A stretch of 64,000 bases of DNA from an uncultured Clostridia bacterium (lineage in GTDB: Bacteria; Bacillota; Clostridia; Oscillospirales; Acutalibacteraceae): assembly GCA_945863885.1 (NCBI GenBank), contig CAMAZY010000003.1, forward strand, positions 62,001-126,000, given 5' to 3'. Both the position numbers and the translations under genes were made by a program. Positions 4,625 to 27,232 of this stretch are shown here, piece after piece. Positions within the stretch are counted from its first letter, which is position 1, and every line of letters begins with the position of its first letter. The notes beneath the pieces were generated by a model, which saw only the letters and a list, made by a program, of their open reading frames with translations, was not told the DNA's origin and did not search any database.

Positions 4625-4781
4625 TTTATCCCTCGGGTGTACAAAAGGAAAGTGCCTTCCCTTCATAACCGAAGAAAAGGCACAACATTATAGTCAAAAA
4701 ACTTTAATGCTGATTGTTCCTCGGCAGGCGGCATGAGCCTTTAAGTGATACACCTGCTGTCTTAGGGCTGACAGCTTGAAT
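4625..4781 (-). ncRNA. L10 leader (autoregulatory rplJL leader)
   Basis: Between the -10 and rplJ; contains the CTAAGACAGCAGGTG ... CCTGCCGAGG pairing typical of the L10_leader family, then a hairpin (aaggcac...gtgcctt) before rplJ. Confidence 0.8.
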
Positions 4782-4810
4782 ATTATACTACACACGGCAC
4801 GCCGTGTCAA
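4782..4810 (-). promoter_or_regulatory. Sigma-A promoter of rplJL (TTGACA-N17-TATAAT)
   Basis: Perfect consensus hexamers on the minus strand: TTGACA cggcgtgccgtgtgtag TATAAT. Confidence 0.85.
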
Positions 4811-9770: not shown

Positions 9771-9827
9771 TTATCGTTACACGATATTTCACGGTTTCAT
9801 TATAATATCGTTACTCGATATTGTCAA
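9771..9827 (-). promoter_or_regulatory. Autoregulatory promoter/operator of PadR operon
   Basis: TTGACA-[ATATCGAGTAACGATAT]-TATAAT with the palindrome exactly filling the 17-bp spacer, and a second copy (AATATCGTGTAACGATAA) downstream of the -10. Confidence 0.8.
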
Positions 9828-9889
9828 GTTGTGCGGCAAAAAATTCTGAAAAGTACAGACCTTTCACAGGCAAGCCGTCGGTTGTCATA

Positions 9890-10051
9890 GGCAAGCTCTA
9901 AAATCTCAAGGCGTTTGGCATAGTGCCCAAATGATGTCGGCTTTTAGGCAAAATGAAGCAGGAATACTCTGTGTATTTCAAGGATTTTTAACGACAAAGA
10001 CGGCATTAGTTGGGCATTATGACAAATGCCGGGATGTTTTTAGAGGTTGCC
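9890..10051 (+). ncRNA. Candidate structured leader RNA, copy 1 (extended apical stem)
   Basis: GGCAAGCTCTAA ... TTAGAGGTTGCC outer arms; GGCAT/ATGCC inner stem; shares conserved core with 27168-27232. Confidence 0.6.
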
Positions 10052-10061
10052 ATAAAAAAAG

Positions 10062-10088
10062 CTCCGGCATATACTGCTACTGCCGGAG
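10062..10088 (+). promoter_or_regulatory. SD-sequestering hairpin
   Basis: Perfect 8-bp inverted repeat CTCCGGCA-N11-TGCCGGAG; the 3' arm contains part of the SD GGAGGTG of the ORF at 10097. Confidence 0.7.
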
Positions 10089-10096
10089 GTGATGAA

Positions 10097-27167: not shown

Positions 27168-27232
27168 AGCAAGCTCTAAGAACTCAGGCGTTTGGCATTT
27201 TGACGCATGCCGGGACGTTGTTAGAGGTTGCC
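27168..27232 (+). ncRNA. Candidate structured leader RNA, copy 2 (minimal hairpin) upstream of murC
   Basis: GCAAGCTCTAAGAACTCAGGCGTTTGGCAT-TTTGACGC-ATGCCGGGACGTTGTTAGAGGTTGCC; near-identical core to copy 1. Confidence 0.6.

Follow-up and report, generated by a model that had tools for sequence, protein, structure and literature searches.

The window analysed here, 64,000 nt from the genome of an uncultured Clostridia bacterium, contains two hairpins with matching arms, and the question they raise is whether such a repeat is a cis-regulatory RNA or a small dispersed hairpin element, the two readings offered in the initial annotation. Our results show that it is a small mobile hairpin (MITE) of a gut-type bacterium and not a cis-regulatory RNA. 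Copy 1, at positions 9890-10051 (+ strand), is the whole mobile element, a palindrome of 162 nt delimited by BLAST, by its fold and by an empty site in the sister species G020. Copy 2 (27168-27232, + strand) is a 65-nt mini form that lacks the apical module and lies in the 5' region of murC; the coordinates and arms originally assigned to both elements were verified. The fold of copy 1 spans both ends and is more stable on the + strand (-71.8 kcal/mol) than on the other (-46.9 kcal/mol). The element has sharp ends, GGCAACCTCTAAAAAC ... GTTTTTAGAGGTTGCC, with terminal inverted repeats (TIRs) of 16 bp: in copy 1 the left one reads GGCAAGCTCTAAAATC (9890-9905, + strand; GGCAACCTCTAAAAAC is the family consensus) and the right one GTTTTTAGAGGTTGCC (10036-10051, + strand). 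The left copy of the target site, CATA, is at 9886-9889 (+ strand), and the right one, (C)ATA at 10051-10054, is one base short or shared.

The hairpin had been described as present twice; both copies are real, but the actual number in their own genome (G000; 2.6 Mb in 67 contigs) is about 50. A 181-nt query gave 58 BLAST matches there, whole elements being mostly 80-94% identical with boundaries at the same two bases, and the TIR pattern, with up to three mismatches allowed, occurred 81 times as against three for a reversed control. The copies come in three sizes: mini forms of 57-67 nt, the 162-nt form, which is the commonest, and a 437-nt form enlarged by two extra hairpins that are inserted close to the tip. 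Copy 2 retains the outer 32 and 33 nt, the apical stem being absent, and is an internal-deletion derivative of the full element; similar mini forms are found at four other loci in the same genome (L063, L066, L067 and L068) and at two in G020. In the 437-nt form, the inner cassette of L052 and L057 is opposite in orientation to that of L056, which is the outcome expected from recombination between its inverted arms.

That the element was inserted, and is therefore mobile, follows from the combination of its TIRs, its target duplications and the empty site. An exact 4-bp duplication flanks 19 of the 45 full copies in its own genome and G020 (the mean for shuffled flanks is 3.5), and none of the 45 is flanked by a 5-bp duplication. 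At the G020 site that is syntenic with copy 1 there is no element: GCTGTCATA is followed immediately by GTAAAGAACTCCGG, and the site is flanked, as copy 1 is, by the padR promoter region and the DUF6774 gene. G020 itself has about 30 copies and is the sole such carrier among 33 related species searched; at the genus level, the family is present in numbers in only 2 of 34 genomes. A search of 394 genomes from the order for the exact TIR 16-mer gave only the element's own genome, plus one chance match, and in viral contigs the 16-mer gave chance matches, the element being absent. The repeat is thus short and non-coding, has dispersed copies, TIRs and a fixed-length target duplication, and is missing from a site in a relative, all of which are properties of MITEs. 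The proposal of a small dispersed hairpin element was borne out by the roughly 50 dispersed copies and their ends. The refuting conditions set at the outset gave a mixed picture: further copies exist in a related genome and covariation is present, Rfam has no match, and the element is a MITE. TIRs together with target duplications of fixed length indicate double-strand transposition by DDE transposases acting in trans. No TIR pair was found around a transposase in the element's own genome, G020 or R. flavefaciens FD-1, a PF01609 search of seven genomes gave few matches, none with matching ends, and the searches of carrier genomes by TIR sites and PF01609 brought up no IS whose ends match. Autonomous parents of MITEs are often lost, and a parent with the same ends is usual rather than required.

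In other genomes, weak matches to copy 1 fell mainly in its centre, and several of these loci form large palindromes in which the arms are unrelated and the apex has the same sequence as in copy 1, AAGGCAAAAA-n-C-GCAGG-[stem-loop]-CC-GAG-n'-ATTTTTAACGnAG. Searching 295 genomes of the order with a pattern for it gave matches in 7, and the reversed control gave none. A covariance model, R1, built from 13 sequences of other genera or genomes and none from the element's own, found copy 1 as its sole match in the window (9932-10007, + strand; 44.8 bits, E=9e-10). This apical module, CnAGGC-[A5..T5 stem]-AACGnnG, is a stem interrupted by two internal loops, both asymmetric and conserved (CnAGGC/AACGnnG and GCA/GA); in copy 1, the conserved AGGC of the 5' side lies at 9946-9949 and the conserved AACG of the 3' side at 9990-9993 (both on the + strand). 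In the GTDB species collection, the pattern matches listed include, on the Bacillota side, Ruminococcus, Oscillibacter, Eubacterium and Pseudoflavonifractor, as well as Saprospiraceae, Draconibacterium, Mariniphaga and Aquimarina, and also Pseudoalteromonas, Neisseria dentiae, Sulfurimonas and Aliarcobacter; nearly all of the matches put to the covariance model were confirmed by it. The module is therefore found in differently ended mobile hairpins of Bacillota, Bacteroidota, Pseudomonadota and Campylobacterota. In 24 selected carriers the model gave between 1 and 147 hits per genome; high-copy carriers have 147 or 114.

Most of the matches in these other hosts form the apex of a palindrome that is about 130-165 nt long and has host-specific ends: AGAACCTGTCCACATAGG in R. 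flavefaciens, ATACCAATCCGCTTAATTAAG in Pseudoalteromonas, TTAGAGCCTGTTTAG in uncultured Clostridia, GGGCGTATCTGAAAAC in Ca. Heritagella, GTGCTCTGTCAAGAT in Saprospiraceae and CTAGGGCGTGTAGTCAGAA in Neisseria. The target duplication is TNA in 13 of 15 R. flavefaciens copies and CTAG at the Neisseria copy. Judged from these sequence comparisons, the ends are far younger than the tip. The earlier description of a conserved core with a variable tip has to be turned around, since the tip of copy 1 is what distant bacteria conserve and copy 2 has lost it by deletion. The 437-nt forms and some other loci have two or three modules, each topping its own stem, a variation that would fit a binding site of variable number. 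The own genome contains one more hairpin with this apical module, seemingly unrelated to the first (L380, 878-952, + strand; G000:C9:48277-48351; 51 bits). Pseudoalteromonas sp. MMG007 has three tandem modules in one orientation (L256, 6065-6342), two of them with AATAA/TTATT replacing AAAAA/TTTTT.

The structure of the module is supported by overwhelming covariation. In an alignment of 13 sequences (A2), made from sequence and not fitted to the model, 31 double-change cells were counted against 9.7 after shuffling, with a covariation score of 0.30 (slid controls, 0.13 or less). For 79 distinct model matches, whose alignment is fitted to the model and thus leans towards it, there were 494 double-change cells against 170 shuffled and a score of 0.63 against 0.16 or less for the slid controls. 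The covariation that had been proposed as a check is hence present.

The arms indicate which strand is folded. A plain DNA palindrome should have as many G.T as A.C mismatches on a given strand. When arms only were aligned, with a score symmetric for G.U and A.C and with the core left out, the module-bearing strand of 72 elements had 257 G.U and 72 A.C. An earlier test with the core included had given only 270 against 217, a weak bias because the fixed core loops contribute constant mismatches, and it was after seeing this result that exclusion of the core was chosen. After grouping the arms by similarity into 31 clusters, whose independent origin is not proven, G.U exceeded A.C in 29 and the reverse held in one; the G139-type cluster is without bias. 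The excess of G.U argues that the fold of the module strand has been selected, as RNA or as single-stranded DNA, and one specific strand thus appears to be kept foldable. RNA is not proven by this, because G.T is well tolerated as a mismatch in DNA too. Of the original designation as a structured RNA element, then, a covarying structure kept across phyla stands, and its RNA nature is the less certain part, with single-stranded DNA as the alternative.

Within the element's own family, the stem cells show 314 G.U against 21 A.C, but substitutions private to single copies show 16 against 13 and look neutral. Taken by themselves, these singletons give no sign of selection, and purifying selection on inserted copies is rejected. 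From the neutral private mutations we infer that selection acts in propagation and not in situ: the biased stems and the unbiased private changes together argue that the fold is kept in the lineage that spreads, while copies, once inserted, decay.

We consider it probable, with good confidence, that copy 1 is a non-autonomous MITE of an unnamed superfamily whose members have a common apical module, different ends and a strand that is kept foldable. For copy 1, mobility would have been supplied in trans: a transposase recognising the TIRs would have moved it as double-stranded DNA, duplicating 4 bp of the target. The superfamily would consist of palindromes of about 150 nt in several bacterial phyla, with one module in common, and the different ends of its members suggest that different host transposases are probably used. 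The module strand would be kept foldable when single-stranded, most likely as an RNA hairpin, a constraint that would act on the lineage as it propagates rather than on single copies after insertion. The hairpin is likely to have a role in the life cycle of the element itself, for example by providing a site for binding or processing through which it is copied or tolerated, but the module cannot be strictly needed for movement, because mini forms without it recur. More tentatively, the superfamily may be defined by an RNA module whose folded strand is selected in propagation and to which the ends of different transposases have been joined repeatedly, a SINE-like, RNA-dependent parasite; we regard this stronger version as possible rather than probable. 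If true, bacteria would harbour an analogue of those parasites that need their RNA in order to spread.

The strong covariation would agree with a leader or 3' element that acts on its neighbours and has spread by duplication, and the surroundings of the two copies in the window are suggestive: copy 2, as read by eye, has a promoter-like sequence on one side and the murC start codon on the other, and a small gene lies directly downstream of copy 1. However, elements stand in no fixed position or orientation to any gene class. By a simple ORF caller, the flanking genes were both sense in 9 cases and both antisense in 16 in the element's own genus, and 18 and 13 in other hosts, which is random orientation and makes a role of the sense strand in the mRNA of host genes unlikely. 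In addition, TIRs, target duplications and the empty site in the sister species make insertion evident, and private mutations of single copies have no bias towards keeping pairs. The proposal of a cis-regulatory RNA family is therefore already largely refuted, and we consider it very improbable.

A different objection is that the selected single strand is DNA, a folded substrate of the kind used in IS200/IS605, REP or attC systems. A strand-specific fold with conserved loop bases, the tolerance of DNA for G.T, and the lack of orientation bias with respect to genes, by which transcription of host genes is not the driver, would all agree with it, but TIRs and duplications of fixed length (4 bp, TNA, CTAG) are the usual marks of double-strand DDE transposition and are not characteristic of such systems, and we think it unlikely. 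It could also be argued that this is an ordinary MITE, a fossil palindrome whose fold is unselected and whose common tip reflects simple descent, and its dispersal, non-coding sequence, TIRs, target duplications and decaying copies all speak for such an origin. Neutral descent would hardly produce compensatory changes at nearly every pair between phyla with invariant loop bases, and hardly a wobble bias towards one strand in 29 of the 31 clusters; this explanation too we hold to be highly improbable.

No named family had been recognised in this element, and the comparison with Rfam 15, at the gathering cut-off and at relaxed E-values, likewise gave no credible match. Topic and sequence-string searches of the open-access literature found no earlier description; single host-specific families may possibly have been named before. 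To our knowledge, the Correia/NEMIS, ERIC, YPAL and RUP families are each restricted to a few genera. Our element resembles these palindromic bacterial MITEs in its length (100-250 nt), non-coding sequence, TIRs, short target duplication and many intergenic copies, in a transcript that would form one long hairpin and in the existence of internally deleted forms (PMC10969869). It differs in having an apical module common to differently ended families across phyla and a one-strand wobble bias, neither of which is described in the passages of that review examined (PMC10969869). We therefore file it as a palindromic MITE, the conserved apical module across differently ended families being new in the literature searched.

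Within the IS5 family, the IS1031 group duplicates TNA and the IS5 group YTAR. The TNA duplications of R. flavefaciens and CTAG of Neisseria would fit MITEs derived from these groups, whereas the 4-bp duplications of the family in the window are mostly not YTAR. REPs measure 20-40 nt, have neither TIRs nor a duplicated target, and rely on the tyrosine transposase RAYT. The likeness to REP/REPIN lies in dispersed palindromes for which the single-stranded hairpin matters (cf. PMC3116915, PMC2817692). At 162 nt and with a 4-bp target duplication, copy 1 falls outside both the size of REPs and their lack of duplication. Integron attC sites have a strand-specific fold, conserved extrahelical bases and variable arms, and are without TIRs or target duplication; our element is like them in its strand-specific fold, conserved unpaired bases and variable arms, and unlike them in its TIRs and target duplication.

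Bacterial MITEs are usually regarded as passive leftovers of ISs, each local to a few species. A selected, covarying, strand-specific module in at least four phyla would mean that many palindromic MITEs have a common working part, and the long-standing question of why bacterial MITEs are so often palindromic is now directly testable. The covariance model is also a search tool able to label large numbers of unannotated intergenic repeats.

Several observations concern the surroundings of copy 1. Its right end (GGTTGCC plus one flanking A) gives a -35-like TTGCCA 17 nt ahead of TATACT, a promoter-like site before the DUF6774 gene (10047-10075, + strand; 10/12), and this -35 is missing from the empty site of G020; the inserted end may thus possibly have created an outward promoter. 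A hairpin, CTCCGGCA...TGCCGGAG (10064-10090, + strand), overlaps the ribosome-binding site GGAGGTGAT of the same gene, is retained in G020 and might control translation. On the other side, two palindromic repeats, TATCGTTAC[AT]CGATATT (9772-9822), surround a perfect TTGACA-17-TATAAT promoter before padR and are probably the PadR operator. Elsewhere in the window, an ordinary ribosomal protein L10 leader (RF00557, 61.5 bits) is found at 4637-4784 on the - strand.
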